The position numbers and the translations under genes were made by a program. The notes below the pieces were generated by a model. It saw only the letters and a list, made by a program, of their open reading frames with translations. It ran no database searches and was not told where the DNA came from. This document shows, piece by piece, positions 2,353 to 44,827 of a stretch of DNA of 64,000 nucleotides. Within the stretch, counting starts at the first letter, position 1; each line of letters begins with the position of its first letter. This DNA is from Meiothermus sp. (lineage in GTDB: Bacteria > Deinococcota > Deinococci > Deinococcales > Thermaceae), in NCBI RefSeq assembly GCF_026004075.1, contig NZ_BPIK01000002.1, forward strand, positions 620,001-684,000. The letters are read 5' to 3'.

Positions 2353-2628
2353 TTACCTGCGCAGCAGGCGCACGGCCTCCACGATGGCCTTGGTGTCCCC
2401 CTGGCCTCTGGCCAGGTCGGCCCGGCACTCTTCCAGGTAGGTCTCAAAGATGAGGTCGCCGGTGGCTTCCAGGGCGCTTCGGATGCCAGCCAGCAGCGTT
2501 AAGATTTCGCGGCAGTCGCGGTCTTCTTCCACCATCTTTTGCAGGCCCCGCACCTGCCCCTCCAGCCGCTTGAGCCGGTTCAGGACGCGAGTGCGGGCCT
2601 CGAGGTCGTGTTTTTTGACAGTACGCAT
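2353..2628 (-). CDS. cstR: CstR-like persulfide-sensing repressor (CsoR/DUF156 family), copy 1
   Basis: A 91-residue all-helical DUF156 protein with the family signature LNRLKRLEGQVRGLQKMVEE. It has exactly two cysteines, C39 (DRDC) and C68 (LEEC), 29 residues apart, as in the C31/C60 pair of Staphylococcus CstR. The histidine that binds Cu(I) in CsoR, four residues before the second Cys, is Tyr64 here, so a copper sensor is unlikely. CstR repressors lose DNA affinity when per- or polysulfides crosslink the two Cys. The ATG at 2628 lies just downstream of a palindromic operator (2632-2649), suggesting autoregulation; an upstream extension of the frame would run through that operator. It follows the Lgt-like/TlpA gene, as does its paralogue at 40223-40525. 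Confidence 0.85.
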   Translation of the reverse strand: MRTVKKHDLEARTRVLNRLKRLEGQVRGLQKMVEEDRDCREILTLLAGIRSALEATGDLIFETYLEECRADLARGQGDTKAIVEAVRLLRR

Positions 2629-2695: not shown

Positions 2696-3508
2696 CTATT
2701 CCAACTGCCGCAAAAGCTCTTCAAGCTGGGCCCGGTTCACCGGCCCCAGGTGGCGGGCCAGCACCTTTCCATCGGCGCCAATCAGCAAAGTGGTGGGCAG
2801 CCCGCTTACCTGGAAGGCCCGCTGCAAGCCGGCGCTGTCCAGGAAAACCCGCGCCGAAAGCCCGGTCTGGGCCAGAAAGCCCTGGATGGCTCCCACGTCT
2901 TCGCCGGCGTTGAGCAGCACGATGGGGTAGCCCTTCTGCTGGTACTCCACCAAAAGGGGCATCTCGGCCCGGCAGGGTGGGCACCAGGTGGCCCAGAAGT
3001 TGAGCAGCATGGGCTTGGGGAGTTCAGCAAAGCGCACTTCCAGAGGGCGGGTTTGGGCGGGCTCGAGGTACTGCAGCACGCGGCTGGCATACTCGGGCGG
3101 CGCCGGGGTCTGGGCGGGCCGGGTCAGGCTAAACTGCACCCCCAGGGGTAACAACGCCAGTGCCAGCGCCGCGCCGCCCGGCACCAAGAGCCGTGGGCTT
3201 TCTTGGCGTAAGAGCCAGACCGCGGCCAGGGCCCCCACCGGAAGCCCCACCCACCAGTTCCAGCCCCCGCTGCGGATGTCCACAACACCCAGGAGGGCAG
3301 CCCCCAGGCTGGGCCAGGTGGAGAGGTGGGCCACCACATAGCCTATCCGGGCGGCCAGGAGCGTCGCCAGCAGCACCCACCAGGCTTTGCTTTCCAGGCC
3401 TTGCCGGGCGGCCAGCCAGGTAAAGGCCAGAACCCCCACCAGCAGGGCCAGGTTGGGCCAGCTCAGGGCCAGAGGGCCCAGCAAAAGGGCGTCCGGGCTG
3501 AGTTTCAT
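2696..3508 (-). CDS. Lgt-like membrane domain fused to a TlpA-type thioredoxin (copy 1)
   Basis: A 270-residue protein. The first ~125 residues form several membrane helices with Lgt-like landmarks (ARIGYV..., then VVDIRSGGW...GLPVGA), resembling a shortened prolipoprotein diacylglyceryl transferase fold. The C-terminal ~120 residues are a TlpA/ResA thioredoxin domain with NFWATWCPPC (active site about 175-179) and the cis-proline region SGLPTTLLIG. It is probably a membrane-tethered extracytoplasmic thiol reductase or sulfane-sulfur acceptor; whether the Lgt-like part is catalytic is unknown. ATG 3508 overlaps by 4 bases the stop of a 44-codon peptide upstream, and cstR copy 1 follows. A paralogue of equal length lies at 40604-41416. 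Confidence 0.8.
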   Translation of the reverse strand: MKLSPDALLLGPLALSWPNLALLVGVLAFTWLAARQGLESKAWWVLLATLLAARIGYVVAHLSTWPSLGAALLGVVDIRSGGWNWWVGLPVGALAAVWLLRQESPRLLVPGGAALALALLPLGVQFSLTRPAQTPAPPEYASRVLQYLEPAQTRPLEVRFAELPKPMLLNFWATWCPPCRAEMPLLVEYQQKGYPIVLLNAGEDVGAIQGFLAQTGLSARVFLDSAGLQRAFQVSGLPTTLLIGADGKVLARHLGPVNRAQLEELLRQLE

Positions 3509-3639
3509 CGGCTATACACCACCCATCCCAGCGCCAGCAGCGCGACCCAGGGGGCTACCCGGCATAATGAAAACCCACGCAAACGGCAGGCCAGCCCGCT
3601 GCGCAGGCGCTCCACCCCAACCTTTATAAAGCGCGTCAT
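3505..3639 (-). CDS. 44-residue membrane peptide, likely remnant of an anchored rhodanese
   Basis: A short frame from ATG 3639 to TGA 3507-3505, overlapping the TlpA-fusion start as ATGA. Its sequence (RLRSGLACRLRGFSLCRVAP, then a hydrophobic stretch ending VVYSR) matches the N-terminal anchor of the rhodanese at 41413-41844 (LRPFLACRVQGFSPCRVTP). In that second locus the anchor continues into a rhodanese domain and also ends with an ATGA overlap onto the paralogous TlpA fusion. An internal deletion that removed the catalytic domain but kept the anchor and the translational coupling explains both. An in-frame ATG at 3651 is possible but lies inside the -10 box. It may be only a coupling leader, or a functional small membrane protein. 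Confidence 0.6.
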   Translation of the reverse strand: MTRFIKVGVERLRSGLACRLRGFSLCRVAPWVALLALGWVVYSR

Positions 3640-3649
3640 ATCCGGGGTC

Positions 3650-3678
3650 ATTATACCCCAGGGGGATATAATCTGCAA
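3650..3678 (-). promoter_or_regulatory. Promoter with CstR-type operator filling the -35/-10 spacer
   Basis: On the minus strand: -35 TTGCAG (3678-3673), a spacer of exactly 17 bases, and -10 TATAAT (3655-3650). The near-palindrome TATACCCCAGGGGGATATA (plus strand, 3652-3670) fills the spacer, so a bound repressor would block RNA polymerase. The start of transcription should fall within a few bases of ATG 3639, giving an almost leaderless mRNA for the 44-residue peptide and the TlpA fusion. Confidence 0.75.
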
Positions 3679-3730: not shown

Positions 3731-4159
3731 TTACTGCGCTTTGACGGGGGCTTCCACCAGCAGAGTGCCGCCCCCCTCGAGCCTCAGGGTGATCCGAACT
3801 AGCTTGCCCTCCTGCAGGGGTTCTTTAAGCATCATCAGCATGATGTGATAACCCCCGGGTTTGAGCTCGACCCTGCCCTTGGCCGGGATCTCCAGAAACT
3901 GAACGGGGCGCATCTGCATGACCTCTGTGCCCCCTGCACCTTTAACGATGGTGGTTTGGTGGATTTCTACCTTACCAGCCATGGGGCTTTCGACGGCAAT
4001 CACCCGAATGGCCCTGTCGCTGGGGTTGTAAAGGGTCATGAAGGCCCCGCTCACCGGGCCAGGTACCAGGCGAACCCAGGGATTTTCGGCTTTCAGGGCG
4101 GTTTGGGCAAGGCCCGTCAGGCCTATCAAACTCAACAAAACCAGTATTGTGCGTAGCAT
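3731..4159 (-). CDS. PCu(A)C-type periplasmic copper chaperone
   Basis: A 142-residue protein with a signal peptide (MLRTILVLLSLIGLTGLAQ) and a cupredoxin-like PCu(A)C domain. The Cu(I) motif is visible: VEIHQTT, then VMQM about ten residues on, then GGYHIMLM near the C-terminus, matching H-Mx(10)M-x(21)-HxM. These chaperones deliver copper to the CuA site of cytochrome oxidase. It lies ~110 bases downstream of a DUF2946 protein on the same strand, a common pairing in copper metabolism, and may share the operator-bearing promoter near 4664-4690. Confidence 0.88.
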   Translation of the reverse strand: MLRTILVLLSLIGLTGLAQTALKAENPWVRLVPGPVSGAFMTLYNPSDRAIRVIAVESPMAGKVEIHQTTIVKGAGGTEVMQMRPVQFLEIPAKGRVELKPGGYHIMLMMLKEPLQEGKLVRITLRLEGGGTLLVEAPVKAQ

Positions 4160-4269
4160 ACCTTGCTCCAGCTCGAGGCCTCAATGGCCTCTAAAGAAAG
4201 ACAGTTCAGGGTCGTGGATGTTCAAGTCCATCCTCAAGGGTTTTGTTCACGGTAACAGGTGTTACCCAC

Positions 4270-4653
4270 TTAGGCCCACAACGGAGGCCCCCGATAGGGA
4301 GTGTGTTCCCAGAAGCTATATCGGATGTACACCGGTTCCGTTGGTGTGGCTTGTAGCAGCCCTATCTGCACATCCGGCCGGACCTCTGTCGCAAACGCGG
4401 TTAATGCTATGACAAACGCAGAGTTCAGGCAGAGGGGGTAGTGGGGTTGGTGGGTATGGGGGGGTGAGGGGGTGGACTGGGTGTGGGAAGCCCCTGCAGC
4501 AAAGGTACAGACGTCAGCTTCTGCCAAAAAACTCACTGGCAGCACCTGGCTGCGCGGGTCGCGCAGCGCGTACTGGCTCGAGACCAAGAGCACCAGCCCC
4601 GCCAGGAAGAAAACCCAGCGGGTGCGGTGGACTCGAGCCGGAGCCGCCCACAT
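4270..4653 (-). CDS. DUF2946-like membrane protein linked to copper
   Basis: A 127-residue protein with one N-terminal membrane helix (WVFFLAGLVLLVSS), then the DUF2946 landmarks: EADVCTFAAG, a His-containing segment ending in YPLCLNSA (usual form HCPLC), a second hydrophobic stretch, and the typical RGPP near the end. The function of the family is not established; genes of this type often lie beside PCu(A)C chaperones, as here. ATG 4653 was chosen because a -10 box (TATACT, plus strand 4664-4669) ends about ten bases before it, implying a very short leader; the frame is open further upstream but would run through the promoter. A His/Cys-rich cluster fits metal binding. Confidence 0.65.
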   Translation of the reverse strand: MWAAPARVHRTRWVFFLAGLVLLVSSQYALRDPRSQVLPVSFLAEADVCTFAAGASHTQSTPSPPHTHQPHYPLCLNSAFVIALTAFATEVRPDVQIGLLQATPTEPVYIRYSFWEHTPYRGPPLWA

Positions 4654-4690: not shown

Positions 4691-4705
4691 AACGTCCCGC
4701 GACAC

Positions 4706-4730
4706 ATATCCCCCAGGGGTATGTTATACT
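4706..4730 (+). promoter_or_regulatory. CstR-type operator and extended -10 promoter of trxB
   Basis: ATATCCCCCAGGGGTAT (4706-4722) is a 17-bp near-palindrome, followed at once by the extended -10 TG-T-TATACT (TATACT at 4725-4730). A bound repressor would cover the -10/-35 region. It is the clearest operator copy on the plus strand and places thioredoxin reductase and the exporter behind it under the same inferred control. Confidence 0.72.
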
Positions 4731-4776: not shown

Positions 4777-5715
4777 ATGAGCCAACTCTACGACGTGGTG
4801 ATTATCGGGGGCGGCCCCGCCGGGCTGACCGCAGGCATCTACACCGGACGGGCCAACCTCAAAACCCTCATCCTGGAAAAAGGCCTGCCGGGGGGCCAGA
4901 TTGCCCAGACCGAGGAGGTGGAGAACTACCCCGGCTTCCCCGAGCCCATCAGCGGGGCTGAGCTATCCGAACGCATGGTGCAGCAGGCCAAACGCTTTGG
5001 GGCCGAGATTGTGATGGACGAGGCCCAGGCCGTGGAAAAAACCCCGGAGGGTTTCGTGGTGCGGGGCTACGAGCAGGACTACCGCGCCCGCACGGTAATT
5101 CTGGCCACCGGGGCCAACCCCAAGAAACTGGGCGTACCCGGCGAAGAGAAGTTTTATGGCCGGGGTGTGAGCACCTGTGCTACCTGTGACGGCTTCTTTT
5201 ACCGGGGCAAGGAAGTGGTGGTGGTGGGCGGGGGCGACGCCGCGGTGGAGGAAGGTCTGTTCCTCACCAAGTTTGCCTCCAAGGTCACCCTGGTGCACCG
5301 CCGCGACACCCTGCGGGCCAACAAGACCGCCCAGGCCCGGGCTCTGGCCCACCCCAAGATGCAGTTCATCTGGGATACCGTGGTCGAGGAGGTGCTGGGC
5401 GAGGAGACTGTCACCGGGGTGCGCCTCAGAAACCTGAAGACCGGCGAGGTCTACGACTACCCTACCGACGGGGTCTTTGTTTTCATCGGGCATGAGCCCA
5501 ACACCGGCTTTTTGCAGGGGGTGGTGGAACTCCGGCCCGACGGCTACGTGGCGGTGCGGGACGAGATTTTCACTTCGGTTCCGGGGCTGTTTGCGGCGGG
5601 GGATGTGGCCGACCCCATCTACCGCCAGCTTTCCACCAGCGTGGGAGCCGGCACCCGTGCGGCCATGATGGCCGAGCGCTACCTGGCCGAACAGGAACAC
5701 GCCGCCGTGCACTAG
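4777..5715 (+). CDS. trxB: Thioredoxin-disulfide reductase
   Basis: A 312-residue low-molecular-weight thioredoxin reductase. Visible parts: FAD-binding [14 protein letters not shown] at the N-terminus, the redox-active CATC ([10 protein letters not shown]) in the middle, NADPH-binding [12 protein letters not shown] with HRRD behind it, and the C-terminal FAD loop LFAAGDVAD. It transfers electrons from NADPH to thioredoxin in the cytoplasm, and can feed thiol pools used for persulfide removal. Start ATG 4777 follows TAAGGAGA. The gene lies behind a CstR-type operator and is probably cotranscribed with the exporter 10 bases downstream. Confidence 0.95.
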
Positions 5716-37172: not shown

Positions 37173-37513
37173 CACTTCACCGGGAGTTTGTGCCGCTTCC
37201 AGGCTTCTATGCCGCCTACCAGGTTGTAAGCTTTGTAGCCCTTGGCGGCCAGAAAACGCGCGGCCAGGGCGCTGCGTGCGCCGCTTCGGCACTGGCAGAT
37301 GATTTCTTTGTCCCTGGGCAGCTTCTCCCATTCGCTGGCCAGCCGATCGAGCGGCAGGGCCTGCGAGCCGGGGATTTTGCCCTCCTGGCGCTCCAGTGGG
37401 GTACGGACATCCAGAATAATGGCGCCGGCCCTGGCTTTTTCGTGGGCCTCAACTGGGCTGAGGCGGCCCACTGCCGCCCCGCCACCCAATAGGTTTTTAA
37501 GCCAGCCGATCAA
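37172..37513 (-). CDS. Single-domain rhodanese
   Basis: 113 residues with a short hydrophobic N-terminus (MIGWLKNLLGGGAAVG), IILDVRTPLERQEGKIPGS, active loop CQCRSGARSAL and YNLVGGIEAWKRH. The CRSGARS loop is typical of thiosulfate sulfurtransferases. Coupled to its neighbours by overlapping start and stop codons on both sides. Confidence 0.87.
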   Translation of the reverse strand: MIGWLKNLLGGGAAVGRLSPVEAHEKARAGAIILDVRTPLERQEGKIPGSQALPLDRLASEWEKLPRDKEIICQCRSGARSALAARFLAAKGYKAYNLVGGIEAWKRHKLPVK

Positions 37514-38172
37514 CGCTCCACCTCAAAGCCTGCGCTCATCCAGCCGTAGGTGCCGCCCTCGAGGTTGCCCACGTTTTCCTTGGCAAAGCCGTGCCCCACC
37601 AGGTACTCCGAGGCCTGCGACGAACGGCCCCCGGAGGCGCAGACCACCACCAGCTTGCGGTCTTTGGGTAGTTTGCCCACCTCGCTCACGAAGCGCCCCA
37701 GCGGGATATTGACCGCGCCGGGTACGTGGCCCATGGCGTACTCGTAGGGTTCGCGCACGTCCACGACGTAGGCCCCTGCGTCCACCCAGGCCTTGGCCTC
37801 GTGCGGGGTGAGCTCGGTGAAGGCGGTCTCGCGGTAGGTCACCTCCACCGGGACGGTGTCCAAGGGCAGCCCGGCGCGGTACCACGCCAGGATGCCCCCG
37901 TCGAGGTTGAGCACCCGGGCGTAGCCCTTGGCCGCCAGCCAGGCCGCCGCCTGCGCCGAGCGGCCCCCGCTGCGGCAGTAGAGCACCACCGGCTCGTCCT
38001 CAGGCAGCTCGGCGGCCCGCCCGGCGAACTCGGACAGCGGCACCAGCTTGGCGCCGGGGATGCGGGAGTTGGCGAACTCCTCGGCCTCGCGCACGTCCAC
38101 GAAGAGGACCTTCTCCTCGAGCAGCTCCTGCGCTTGTTGGGGGGTGATGTCCTTGTAGGGCACGGTCAACAT
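37510..38172 (-). CDS. Tandem rhodanese with two active domains
   Basis: 220 residues made of two rhodanese domains. The first has VLFVDVREAEEFANSRIPGAK with YCRSGGRSAQAAAWL; the second has YVVDVREPYEYAMGHVPGAVN with VCASGGRSSQASEYL. Both keep the catalytic Cys, unlike classic two-domain rhodaneses where the first is dead. Coding sequence from here leftward in gene order is noticeably richer in GC than the rhodanese downstream. Confidence 0.88.
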   Translation of the reverse strand: MLTVPYKDITPQQAQELLEEKVLFVDVREAEEFANSRIPGAKLVPLSEFAGRAAELPEDEPVVLYCRSGGRSAQAAAWLAAKGYARVLNLDGGILAWYRAGLPLDTVPVEVTYRETAFTELTPHEAKAWVDAGAYVVDVREPYEYAMGHVPGAVNIPLGRFVSEVGKLPKDRKLVVVCASGGRSSQASEYLVGHGFAKENVGNLEGGTYGWMSAGFEVER

Positions 38173-38188
38173 GGTTCTCCTCCGTCGT

Positions 38189-38503
38189 TTAGATCGGGTT
38201 GGCGCAGGGGATCCCCGTCTCGCGCCAGGCCTTGATGCCGCCCTCGAGGTGCCAGACCTTGCGGTAGCCCAGCGCCAGGAGGGTCTTCAGGGCTTCTTGG
38301 GAGCGGTTGCCGCTGCGGCAGTACAGCAGCACCGGCTCTTCGCGCTCGAGGCGGAGCGGGGCCAAGGCCCCGAGGGTGCCGAGGGGGAGCCGCAGGGCGC
38401 CCGGCAGCACCCCCTCCGCCCACTCCTCCGGCTCGCGCACGTCCACCACCCGGTAGCGCTCGAGGGTGCGGTAAGCCGTCTTGGGGTCGAGGTTTCGGGT
38501 CAT
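38189..38503 (-). CDS. Single-domain rhodanese
   Basis: 104 residues: VVDVREPEEWAEGVLPGALRLPL, active loop YCRSGNRSQEALKTL and WHLEGGIKAWRETGIP. Close to the minimal length of the domain. Sits 16 bases upstream of the two-domain rhodanese and 58 bases downstream of the persulfide dioxygenase fusion in the same direction. Confidence 0.88.
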   Translation of the reverse strand: MTRNLDPKTAYRTLERYRVVDVREPEEWAEGVLPGALRLPLGTLGALAPLRLEREEPVLLYCRSGNRSQEALKTLLALGYRKVWHLEGGIKAWRETGIPCANPI

Positions 38504-38561
38504 GGTGCGTCCCTTCAGGAGACCCCCGGGCCCGCGGGCTCGGGGTCAGGCAAATCTTCCC

Positions 38562-40004
<1,443 letters not shown>

Positions 40005-40029
40005 CAGCAAACCTCCTAAGCGCAAGGCT

Positions 40030-40071
40030 ATATCCCCGGGGGGTATATGTCAAGTACCCCTAGGGGGTATT
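40030..40071 (-). promoter_or_regulatory. Twin CstR-type operators at the persulfide dioxygenase promoter
   Basis: ATATCCCCGGGGGGTATAT (40030-40048) and GTACCCCTAGGGGGTATT (40054-40071) lie side by side, with centres about 24 bases apart. On the minus strand TTGACA (40053-40048) lies between them as -35, so the first operator fills the spacer toward a TAGCCT/TATAGC -10 region; the -10 is imperfect. Two sites could allow cooperative repression. Confidence 0.72.
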
Positions 40072-40222
40072 GGATGGCCTCGAGGTCGTGCGGCACGGTA
40101 CGGCCTCCCACCAGGGCTCGAGCCCCCCGCCCTCGCGTAACCCTGACCCCGGCCCACGCGTGGGCCGGGGCGGAAAGCCCGGCTCATCCAGGTCCTCCAC
40201 CCCGGCCGCGCGTGGCGCCCGC

Positions 40223-40525
40223 TCAGCGGCGCAGCAGGCGCACGGCCTCCACGATGCCCCGCGTGTCCCCCTGGCCCTTGGCTAAGTCGGCCTGGCACTC
40301 CTCGAGGTAGGTCTCGAAGATGATGTCGCCGGTGGCCTCGAGGGCGCTGCGCACGCCGGAGAGCAGGGTGAGGATCTCGCGGCAGTCGCGGCCCTCCTCG
40401 ACCATCTTCTGCAGGCCGCGCACCTGGCCCTCCAGGCGCTTGAGGCGGTTGAGCACCTGCTCCTTGGTCGGGGGAGCGGGCCGGGGCTTGCGCTGGGTTC
40501 GGGTTCGGTTCGCAACGGCACTCAA
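40223..40525 (-). CDS. cstR: CstR-like persulfide-sensing repressor, copy 2
   Basis: 100 residues with an extra basic N-terminus (TRTQRKPRPAPPTK) before the DUF156 core. The two cysteines, C48 and C77, are 29 apart and the copper histidine is again Tyr, so it should sense persulfide like copy 1; the two share nearly the whole core. It begins with a TTG at 40525 (GAGGTG upstream). It lies behind the second TlpA fusion, with an operator (40545-40562) before it, and just upstream of the dioxygenase-rhodanese genes. Confidence 0.83.
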   Translation of the reverse strand: MSAVANRTRTQRKPRPAPPTKEQVLNRLKRLEGQVRGLQKMVEEGRDCREILTLLSGVRSALEATGDIIFETYLEECQADLAKGQGDTRGIVEAVRLLRR

Positions 40526-40544
40526 GGTTCACCTCGCGGGCTGG

Positions 40545-40562
40545 GTATCCCTCAGGGGTATC
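40545..40562 (-). promoter_or_regulatory. CstR-type operator in front of cstR copy 2
   Basis: GTATCCCTCAGGGGTATC, an 18-bp palindrome with one mismatch, between the 3' end of the TlpA fusion (40604) and the cstR start at 40525. Suggests autoregulation like copy 1. Confidence 0.65.
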
Positions 40563-40603
40563 CCCCGCGTATCAGTCTATCCCACGGGCGCGCCGGGGGT
40601 GGT

Positions 40604-41416
40604 CTACCGCAGCCGCTGGAGGAGCTCCTCGAGCTGCGCCCGGTTGACGGGGCCGAGGTGGCGCGCCAGGACCCGCCCGTCCGCCCCGATCAGCAAGGTG
40701 GTAGGCAGGCCGCTGACCCGGAAGCTCTCCCGCAGGTTGGCGCTGTCCAGGAAGACCCGCGCCGACAGGCCGGCCTCGCGCAGGAAGCCCTCGACGGCCC
40801 CCGCACCCTCCCCGGCGTTGAGCAGCACGACGGGGTAGCCCTTCTGCTGGTACTCCGCCAGCAGGGGCATCTCGGTGCGGCAGGGCGGGCACCAGGTGGC
40901 CCAGACGTTGAGCAGCATGGGCTTGGGCAGGTCGCCGAAGCGCGCGGGGGAGGGCTGGGAGCGGCCGGGCTCGAGGTAGGCCAGCGGCCGCGCGTCGAGG
41001 GCCGGGCTCTCGAGGGCCAAGCCGGGGCGCAGCAGCGCCTGCTGGAGCCCGAGCGGGAGCGCGGCCAGGGCGAGCGCGCCGGCGGCGGGGACCAGGAGCC
41101 GGCCGGCCTCCCGGCGCAGCAGGGCCCCGGCCGTCAGCGCGCCCCCGGCCAGCCCCCACGCCCAGCTCCAGCCCCCGCTGCGGACGTCCACGACCCCCAG
41201 CAGGGCCGAGGCGGGGTCGGGCCAGGTCCCCAGGTGCTCCAGCACGTACCCCAGCCGGGCCGCCAGGAGCGCCGCCAGCAGCACCCACCACCCCCGGGCC
41301 TCCAGGCCCCGGCGCGCCGCCAGCGCGGTGAAGGCCAGGGCCCCCAGCAGCAGGGCCAGGTTGGGCCAGCTCAGGGCCAGCGGCCCCAGCAGGAGGGCGT
41401 CGGGGGTCAGGCTCAT
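40604..41416 (-). CDS. Lgt-like membrane domain fused to a TlpA-type thioredoxin (copy 2)
   Basis: 270 residues, the same length as copy 1 (2696-3508) and alignable end to end: PDALLLGPLALSWPNLALL, RSGGWSWAWGLAGGAL, LLNVWATWCPPCRTEM, LPTTLLIGADGRVLARHLGPVNRAQLEELL. The N-terminal part is more Ala/Leu rich. Membrane-bound, thioredoxin domain probably outside. Its ATG overlaps the stop of the upstream rhodanese (ATGA), so expression is coupled to it; cstR copy 2 follows downstream. Confidence 0.82.
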   Translation of the reverse strand: MSLTPDALLLGPLALSWPNLALLLGALAFTALAARRGLEARGWWVLLAALLAARLGYVLEHLGTWPDPASALLGVVDVRSGGWSWAWGLAGGALTAGALLRREAGRLLVPAAGALALAALPLGLQQALLRPGLALESPALDARPLAYLEPGRSQPSPARFGDLPKPMLLNVWATWCPPCRTEMPLLAEYQQKGYPVVLLNAGEGAGAVEGFLREAGLSARVFLDSANLRESFRVSGLPTTLLIGADGRVLARHLGPVNRAQLEELLQRLR

Positions 41417-41844
41417 CGCTCCAGAGGATAGCCCGCCGACTGCCAGGCCAGTATGCCGCCCTGCACGTTGCGCACGTCCTTGAAGCCGAGCTCGGCCAGC
41501 GTCCGGCTGGCCTGTACCGAGCGGTTGCCGCTGCGGCAGATCACGTACACCGGGGCGTCCTTGGGGAGCTGCCCGGCCCGGGCGGCCACCTGCCCCAGGG
41601 GCAGCAGGGTGGACCCCGGCACGTGCCCCTCGGCGTACTCGTAGGGCTCGCGCACGTCCAGCACGACGCGGCCGGGCTCGCTGGCGGCCCGAAGCTCCTG
41701 CACGCTCACGTCCTTGTAGCCCGGCTTGGGGGCGCAGCCGTTGAACAACATGAGGACCGCCAGGACCGCCAGGAGCCAGGGCGTCACCCGGCACGGCGAG
41801 AAGCCCTGCACCCGGCAGGCCAGGAAGGGGCGCAGGCGGCCCAT
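41413..41844 (-). CDS. Membrane-anchored or lipoprotein rhodanese
   Basis: 143 residues: N-terminal anchor LRPFLACRVQGFSPCRVTPWLLAVLAVLMLFNGCAP, with a lipobox-like FNGC, then a rhodanese domain VVLDVREPYEYAEGHVPGS, active loop ICRSGNRSVQASRTL and NVQGGILAWQ. The anchor resembles the 44-residue peptide of the first locus. Its stop overlaps the TlpA-fusion start; its start overlaps the stop of a 39-residue ORF. Sulfane-sulfur transfer at the outer face is the likely role. Confidence 0.83.
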   Translation of the reverse strand: MGRLRPFLACRVQGFSPCRVTPWLLAVLAVLMLFNGCAPKPGYKDVSVQELRAASEPGRVVLDVREPYEYAEGHVPGSTLLPLGQVAARAGQLPKDAPVYVICRSGNRSVQASRTLAELGFKDVRNVQGGILAWQSAGYPLER

Positions 41845-41963
41845 CAGCGCACGCCTCCGATGGTCTCGAGAACGGCCTCCACGAAGGCCCGCCCGGGCCG
41901 GCCGTCCAGCGCCTGCTGCACCTGTTCGCGGATTTCGTCGGGGAGCATCTTCTCCATGTCCAT
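41844..41963 (-). CDS. 39-residue small protein at the head of the rhodanese-TlpA operon
   Basis: MDMEKMLPDEIREQVQQALD... with ATG 41963 after GAGGAAAAGCC and a stop overlapping the next ATG. Acidic, amphipathic, no Cys and no known motif. Position just behind the operator promoter suggests it is translated first in the transcript. It could be a leader or a small regulatory protein; not recognised. Confidence 0.5.
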   Translation of the reverse strand: MDMEKMLPDEIREQVQQALDGRPGRAFVEAVLETIGGVR

Positions 41964-41997
41964 GGCTTTTCCTCTGGGCTCCGTAGAGCCTCGCTCC

Positions 41998-42026
41998 ACT
42001 ATACCCCGGGGGGATATATCTGTAAA
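41998..42026 (-). promoter_or_regulatory. Promoter with CstR-type operator in its 17-bp spacer
   Basis: On the minus strand: -35 TTTACA (42026-42021), 17-base spacer, -10 TATAGT (42003-41998). The palindrome ATACCCCGGGGGGATATAT (plus strand, 42001-42019) fills the spacer, as in the promoter at 3650-3678. It drives the 39-residue protein, the rhodanese and the second TlpA fusion. Confidence 0.75.
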
Positions 42027-42052
42027 GCAAGCCGTAATCGGCCCGGCAATAC

Positions 42053-42107
42053 TTGAACAAACGCTCATGTATTGCTAGACTCCTGCTATAGCTGAGCGGT
42101 TGCTCAG
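42053..42107 (+). promoter_or_regulatory. P-type ATPase promoter with ArsR/SmtB-type dyad
   Basis: TTGAAC (42053-42058), 17-base spacer, TAGACT (42076-42081). Downstream is the dyad CTGAGC-GGTT-GCTCAG (42092-42107), and TTGAAC...TCATG overlaps the -35 in a SmtB-like half-site. The ArsR-type regulator at 44408 is the natural candidate to bind; this is an inference. Confidence 0.6.
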
Positions 42108-42140
42108 ATATTGAAACCGCGTTCTCAAGGAGGAGCCCTG

Positions 42141-44366
<2,226 letters not shown>

Positions 44367-44407
44367 CCGCCCGCGGCCTGTGGCATACTCGAGACGAGGT
44401 TATCGCG

Positions 44408-44779
44408 ATGCCGACCGCTTTAGACCGAGCCGCCGCCTGCGAGGAGCGGGGCATCCACCCCGAAGCCCTCGAGACGGCCCGCCGGGCCGCTCCCGACGAG
44501 GCGCGCGTGGCGCGGGCGAGCAGCCTGCTCAAGGCGGTGAGCGACCCCACCCGGCTGCGCATCCTGGCCGCGCTGGCCGCGACCGAGCTGTGCGTGTGCG
44601 ACCTCGCCGCCCTCACCGGCACCAGCGAGTCGGCGGTGAGCCACCAGCTAAGGCTGCTGCGGGAGGAGCGGCTGGTGGCCTTCCGCAAGGAGGGGCGCAT
44701 GGCCTACTACCGGCTGATGGACCACCACGTCACCGAGCTCATCCGCAGCGCGCTCGAGCACGCCCAGGAGCCCGGCTGA
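44408..44779 (+). CDS. ArsR/SmtB-family metal-responsive repressor
   Basis: 123 residues, winged helix: [58 protein letters not shown]. The metal motif ELCVCDL (alpha3 site of CadC/ArsR type) and a C-terminal [14 protein letters not shown] with alpha5 His residues suggest Zn/Cd/Pb sensing. It is downstream of the P-type ATPase and probably represses it by binding the dyad near 42092. Confidence 0.88.
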
Positions 44780-44827
44780 GCCGGCCGCCCTCGCGCCCGC
44801 CTCCCCAAAGAACGGGCTCCCGGAAAG

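Follow-up and report, generated by a model that had tools for sequence, protein, structure and literature searches.

What keeps in place a 44-codon ORF that resembles a rhodanese gene stripped of its catalytic domain, at the head of an operon for a membrane redoxin? The window analyzed here is a 64 000-nucleotide stretch of a Meiothermus sp. contig (NZ_BPIK01000002.1), and unless another locus is named, coordinates refer to it. The answer that we consider best, with a probability of about 0.6, is that a former enzyme gene is retained as a first cistron whose translation supplies ribosomes to the downstream TlpA fusion, and that its peptide is itself still under selection.

The locus and its second copy

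The operon consists of the following elements.

2353..2628, minus strand: cstR, CstR/CsoR-family repressor, downstream of the TlpA fusion
2696..3508, minus strand: TlpA/ResA-type redoxin with an N-terminal Lgt-like membrane domain (the TlpA fusion)
3505..3639, minus strand: short ORF, rhodanese signal-peptide remnant, 44 amino acids plus stop
3517..3523, minus strand: GGTGGTG, Shine-Dalgarno (SD)-like, for the TlpA fusion, within the last short-ORF codons
3650..3679, minus strand: promoter TTTGCA-18-TATAAT, with the short-ORF ATG 10 nt past the -10 element
3652..3670: CstR-type palindromic operator TATATCCCCCTGGGGTATA, overlapping the promoter spacer and the -10 element

The short ORF, read from 3639 to 3505 on the minus strand, encodes MTRFIKVGVERLRSGLACRLRGFSLCRVAPWVALLALGWVVYSR*, and its TGA sits within the ATGA that opens the 270-amino-acid TlpA fusion at 3508 of the same strand, as the earlier note had described; eight bases separate the GGTGGTG from the tlpA ATG. 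Residues 9-31 (VERLRS...PW) match a rhodanese N-terminus, and the segment VERLRSGLACRLRGFSLCRVAPW corresponds almost residue for residue to the beginning of the rhodanese of genome G004 (MERLRSFLACRVQGFSLCRVMPW), from its start codon. Nothing else of the enzyme remains: the short ORF has no Pfam match, the rhodanese domain PF00581 included, and it ends in GWVVYSR*, without the lipobox cysteine of a lipoprotein signal peptide. The charge of +5 to +8 and the hydrophobic stretch of about 15 residues make a membrane location of the peptide plausible, although the shortness of this stretch and an Arg, Lys or Asn close to it in most species count against it. The cstR product carries Cys39 and Cys68, with a tyrosine replacing the CsoR histidine ligand, a residue pattern that assigns it, by prediction, to the CstR subfamily.

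A related block lies some distance away in the window.

40223..40525, minus strand: second-copy cstR
40604..41416, minus strand: second-copy TlpA fusion, 71% identical to the first
41413..41844, minus strand: full lipoprotein rhodanese with a CR...FSxCRVxPW N-terminal region
41844..41963, minus strand: 39-amino-acid ORF overlapping the rhodanese start, between promoter and rhodanese
42000..42018: second-copy CstR-type operator

The series of cstR, TlpA fusion, anchored protein and operator promoter thus occurs twice, as previously claimed, with the rhodanese as the anchored protein of the second block; the claimed makeup, however, leaves out the small ORF at 41844-41963. The anchors, which had been called the same, are similar but not identical (LACRLRGFSLCRVAPW and LACRVQGFSPCRVTPW). 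That of the second copy does lead into a full rhodanese (143 amino acids; PF00581 match, E 1e-20; CRSGNR at residue 103), but this anchor is a lipoprotein signal peptide, which ends in the lipobox LFNGC.

The second block is part of a recently transferred sulfur/metal island and not a local duplication, because it is 96-98.5% identical, over the aligned pieces, to DNA of another genus. The region 37500-44800, which encodes a persulfide dioxygenase, rhodaneses, a heavy-metal ATPase and an ArsR-type regulator, is mostly 94-99% identical among this genome, G007 and G021, and G003, from another genus, joins at this level over the stretch compared, about 37500-42400. Among the genomes with the short peptide, the second copy was found in G000, G007 and G021.

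The rhodanese is ancestral and the short form derived

The short ORF is no chance occurrence. Its peptide is encoded at the same place in ten further Meiothermus genomes, 11 altogether, and three more genomes have diverged short leaders. The genus names used for the relatives depend on G009 and G001, which we take to be M. ruber and A. silvanus, respectively. When 50 genomes of the family were searched at the DNA level for the pattern CR...S-x-C...PW, 16 of the 18 matches fell at the short-ORF locus or the second copy and the other two at unrelated places, with none for the reversed control pattern. The stop/start overlap typical of translationally coupled pairs, seen here between the short ORF and the TlpA fusion, recurs in 13 of the 14 loci that lack the rhodanese; in G015, the short ORF stops 4 bases before the tlpA start. 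The most reduced leader is found in G011 (locus L018), where MTPWIAESFAVGWGRCG*, a mere 17 codons, overlaps the tlpA start, with a degenerate operator upstream.

The TlpA fusion is present in all five genera of the family, and a full lipoprotein or exported rhodanese precedes it in the seven Thermus-like loci read, which come from the small-genome genus and the one next to it, and likewise in G012, both g3 genomes and two Allomeiothermus-like genomes. In the maximum likelihood tree of the TlpA fusion, all 13 rhodanese-less rows lie beyond one branch, which amounts to one state change, with the support of that branch (93/95) being just below the threshold set for a demonstrated clade. Given that the outgroup loci carry the rhodanese and that a single branch separates the two states, the rhodanese is ancestral and the short form derived, with the domain most likely lost once. 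A single clade of the motif-bearing short forms, without G010, G011 and G015, is neither demonstrated nor rejected (AU test, p 0.22). The opposite polarity, with the short form as the ancestor, is ruled out by the TlpA-fusion tree. The cross-genome comparison proposed earlier accordingly gives a derived short form whose sequence is homologous to, not unrelated to, that of the rhodanese. An in-frame deletion that kept the overlap, as suggested in the earlier note, is the simplest account, with end points that cannot be placed from the sequence, and it has to be supplemented by a second deletion on the 5' side, which took the upstream oxidoreductase and its SD leader.

In relatives at the order level, the 4 kb stretches read contain the TlpA fusion accompanied by neither a rhodanese nor an oxidoreductase, so that the pairing probably originated within the family. 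Elsewhere in the short-peptide genomes, a close homologue of the lost rhodanese (73%) is found only in G006, where it adjoins an intact oxidoreductase and a persulfide-dioxygenase cluster. A full-length relative of the oxidoreductase is present in 18 of the 18 genomes of the genus and, in both examined (G000 and G009), is followed by another rhodanese and cstR, so that the lost enzyme activity was probably redundant.

A probably leaderless start

In the peptide-bearing loci, the distance from the -10 element to the ATG is 6-13 nt, and no SD sequence lies ahead of the ATG; in G018, the conserved TATAAT is located 6 nt before the ATG, and a second TATTAT overlaps the start. Leaderless mRNAs arise in Deinococcus radiodurans from a -10 motif located about 6-7 bp ahead of the ORF, and such -10-adjacent leaderless genes are reported to be common in the Deinococcus-Thermus phylum (PMC12340547). 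Because the ATG follows the -10 element and operator so closely, the short-ORF mRNA is probably leaderless or nearly so. The likeness to the genes of PMC12340547 extends to both features, a -10 element placed a few bp upstream of the start codon and the lack of an SD sequence, but what is described there is a general gene pattern whereas in Meiothermus it serves a stub cistron that overlaps the next gene. In the second copy, the first ATG comes about 40 nt after the -10 element, and the interval contains an SD-like AGAGG. From this difference we infer that the operon was originally SD-led and became, probably, leaderless through the loss of the upstream gene.

Two kinds of constraint on the short ORF

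For the analysis of substitutions, 36 codons were numbered from V/MERLRS to the last residue, so that adding 8 gives the residue of the 44-amino-acid peptide. The pattern of changes indicates two distinct constraints, with the cysteine motif conserved as protein and the last six codons frozen as DNA. At this 3' end, pS is 0.0, compared with 0.27-0.64 upstream, the synonymous sites being invariant in 10 genomes; codons 1-30 show 1.2 third-position changes per codon, a rate that predicts about six changes across the five third positions free to vary in codons 30-35, where none is seen.

The frozen 3' end is what would be expected if only translation through the short ORF mattered and the peptide were a by-product, and the short ORFs that persist in G010, G015 and G011 (in the last as the 17-codon ORF alone), with the motif lost or altered and the TlpA fusion retained, point the same way. 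The earlier suggestion of a translated leader fits the frozen end, these further-eroded leaders and the promoter. As a complete explanation, however, the by-product reading is doubtful in view of codons 7-18 (residues 15-26, the cysteine motif), for which omega is 0.10-0.17 in nine to ten species and synonymous sites are near saturation (pS 0.55-0.64). In these residues, 34 nucleotide changes correspond to 10 amino-acid changes, fewer than in all 2000 neutral simulations, and the two cysteines and the Pro-Trp do not vary at all across 11 species. Because selection on the cysteine motif is this strong, the peptide appears to be more than a spacer in the species that keep the motif; because G010, G015 and G011 have lost or altered it, the role of the peptide does not appear to be universal.

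These same observations bear on the converse possibility, that of a small membrane protein with a job of its own, for example as a partner of the TlpA fusion active in thiol or persulfide chemistry, the coupling being incidental. The low dN/dS of the cysteine motif agrees with the earlier idea of an independent function, and both functions may hold. Three lineages already have the conserved Cys-x7-Cys arrangement in their rhodanese signal peptide, and it outlasted the loss of the domain; moreover, the operon includes a redoxin and is under a CstR-type operator. We nevertheless regard this possibility as tentative at best, given that the TlpA fusion stays where the motif is gone or altered and that the peptide matches no known family. 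A related and somewhat less probable proposal is that the cytoplasmic n-region of the lipoprotein signal peptide (CR-x4-FS-x-C-x3-PW) is a functional module in its own right, for instance one that acts on the TlpA fusion as a thiol- or persulfide-reactive membrane peptide, and that it outlived the exported enzyme for this reason.

An RNA attenuator, in which the folded coding region would conceal the tlpA start and release it only when opened by a ribosome, is very improbable. RNAalifold does pair the GGCTGGCCTGCC region with the tlpA SD sequence, but the accessibility of the tlpA start site is not below that of shuffled leaders in most species, the folding energies are mostly weaker than those of the shuffles, and compensatory changes occur in only 4 of the 39 pairs. 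By these three measures, there is no support for a conserved RNA fold that masks the tlpA start, and no conserved structure was found that would account for the cysteine motif or for the frozen 3' end. Loss of the catalytic domain could also mark a decaying pseudogene without function, which is barely credible for an ORF whose frame at the tlpA start has been preserved in 14 species, under purifying selection in at least nine.

Gutted oxidoreductase genes upstream

An intact gene for a protein disulfide oxidoreductase precedes the rhodanese in G012, G001, G002, G037 and G049. The 39-amino-acid ORF of the second copy, MDMEKMLPDEIREQVQQAL joined to DGRPGRAFVEAVLETIGGVR, looks like both ends of this approximately 235-amino-acid protein (TIGR02187) with the core gone: only ~16 N-terminal and ~20 C-terminal residues are left, without the two thioredoxin folds and CPYC of TIGR02187, for which the intact G006 homologue scores over the cut-off. 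The C-terminal match is short, and the assignment of this end rests mainly on position and on the comparison with G012 (GGQPDRAFVEAVLKAG). In G004, the oxidoreductase gene is cut to a 44-amino-acid ORF with other end points (MEKIFPDDIRKQVREVPGAIQQPVEVAVF-TPLETLLMLGTGGVR); judging from the two sequences, neither stub can descend from the other. Each has stayed in frame and still overlaps the rhodanese start. The pair, from the same oxidoreductase gene in two lineages, is located at 41844-41963 on the minus strand here and at about 4192-4323 on the minus strand of locus L039. These enzyme stubs look like leaders only, which favours the reading of the peptide as a by-product, and as parallel in-frame remnants of the upstream enzyme they also count for retention of the rhodanese remnant as a ribosome-loading first cistron with a selected peptide.

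How the first cistron might work

Under this preferred explanation, an ancestor of Meiothermus would have had an operon encoding, in this order, a protein disulfide oxidoreductase, a periplasmic lipoprotein rhodanese and the TlpA fusion. Loss of the rhodanese domain, and of the oxidoreductase together with its SD leader, would have left the rhodanese signal-peptide region as a first cistron of about 40 codons directly behind the CstR-controlled promoter. Ribosomes would enter at the 5' ATG, translate the short ORF and terminate at the ATGA, where the internal GGTGGTG would help them to start the TlpA fusion. The peptide, with its cationic N-terminus, cysteine pair and short hydrophobic helix, is still under selection in most species and would probably reside in the membrane. 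The short ORF would be kept mainly because the mRNA is leaderless or nearly so, and if ribosomes pass from cistron to cistron via overlaps, an enzyme at the front could be lost only if the reading frame and both its ends were preserved, a view supported by the 17-codon ORF of G011 that still overlaps tlpA.

Precedents exist separately for leaderless leader ORFs, for overlapping cistrons and for CstR regulons. A close parallel is offered by the mycobacterial polycysteine short ORFs, which are leaderless and act on the next gene by translation, sensing the cysteine supply (Canestrari et al. 2020, via PMC9031893). As described there, these ORFs, like the one in Meiothermus, contain cysteine and lie at the 5' end of an operon, but they have contiguous cysteine codons, whereas the Meiothermus ORF has no such run, only two single cysteine codons seven residues apart (Cys-x7-Cys); unlike them, it has no conserved attenuator and descends from a rhodanese gene. 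The CstR regulons and the CstR-like Thermus repressor TTHA1953 (PMC10318464) likewise have a two-cysteine CsoR-family protein beside rhodanese genes, and Cys39 and Cys68 bear identical residue numbers in TTHA1953; the Meiothermus operator TATAYCCCNNNGGGGTATA differs from the TTHA1953 motif TACNNTACNNNNGTANNGTA, and, unlike in those regulons, the target includes an enzyme-less stub. A limited literature search found no report of an exported enzyme of which the signal-peptide region alone persists as a leader cistron. The locus would be a clear case of an enzyme gene turned leader cistron: where mRNAs are leaderless and cistrons overlap, the front of a dead enzyme may be unremovable without silencing the downstream operon. 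The parallel oxidoreductase stubs suggest that this recurs, and some conserved 'small proteins' may be such stubs.

Two neighbours of the operon deserve mention. A PCu(A)C copper chaperone gene (3731-4159, minus strand) lies directly upstream of the operator on the same strand. A further CstR-type operator, with two mismatches, at 4705-4723 precedes the thioredoxin reductase gene trxB (4777-5715), which suggests that trxB shares a CstR-type regulon with the short-ORF operon.
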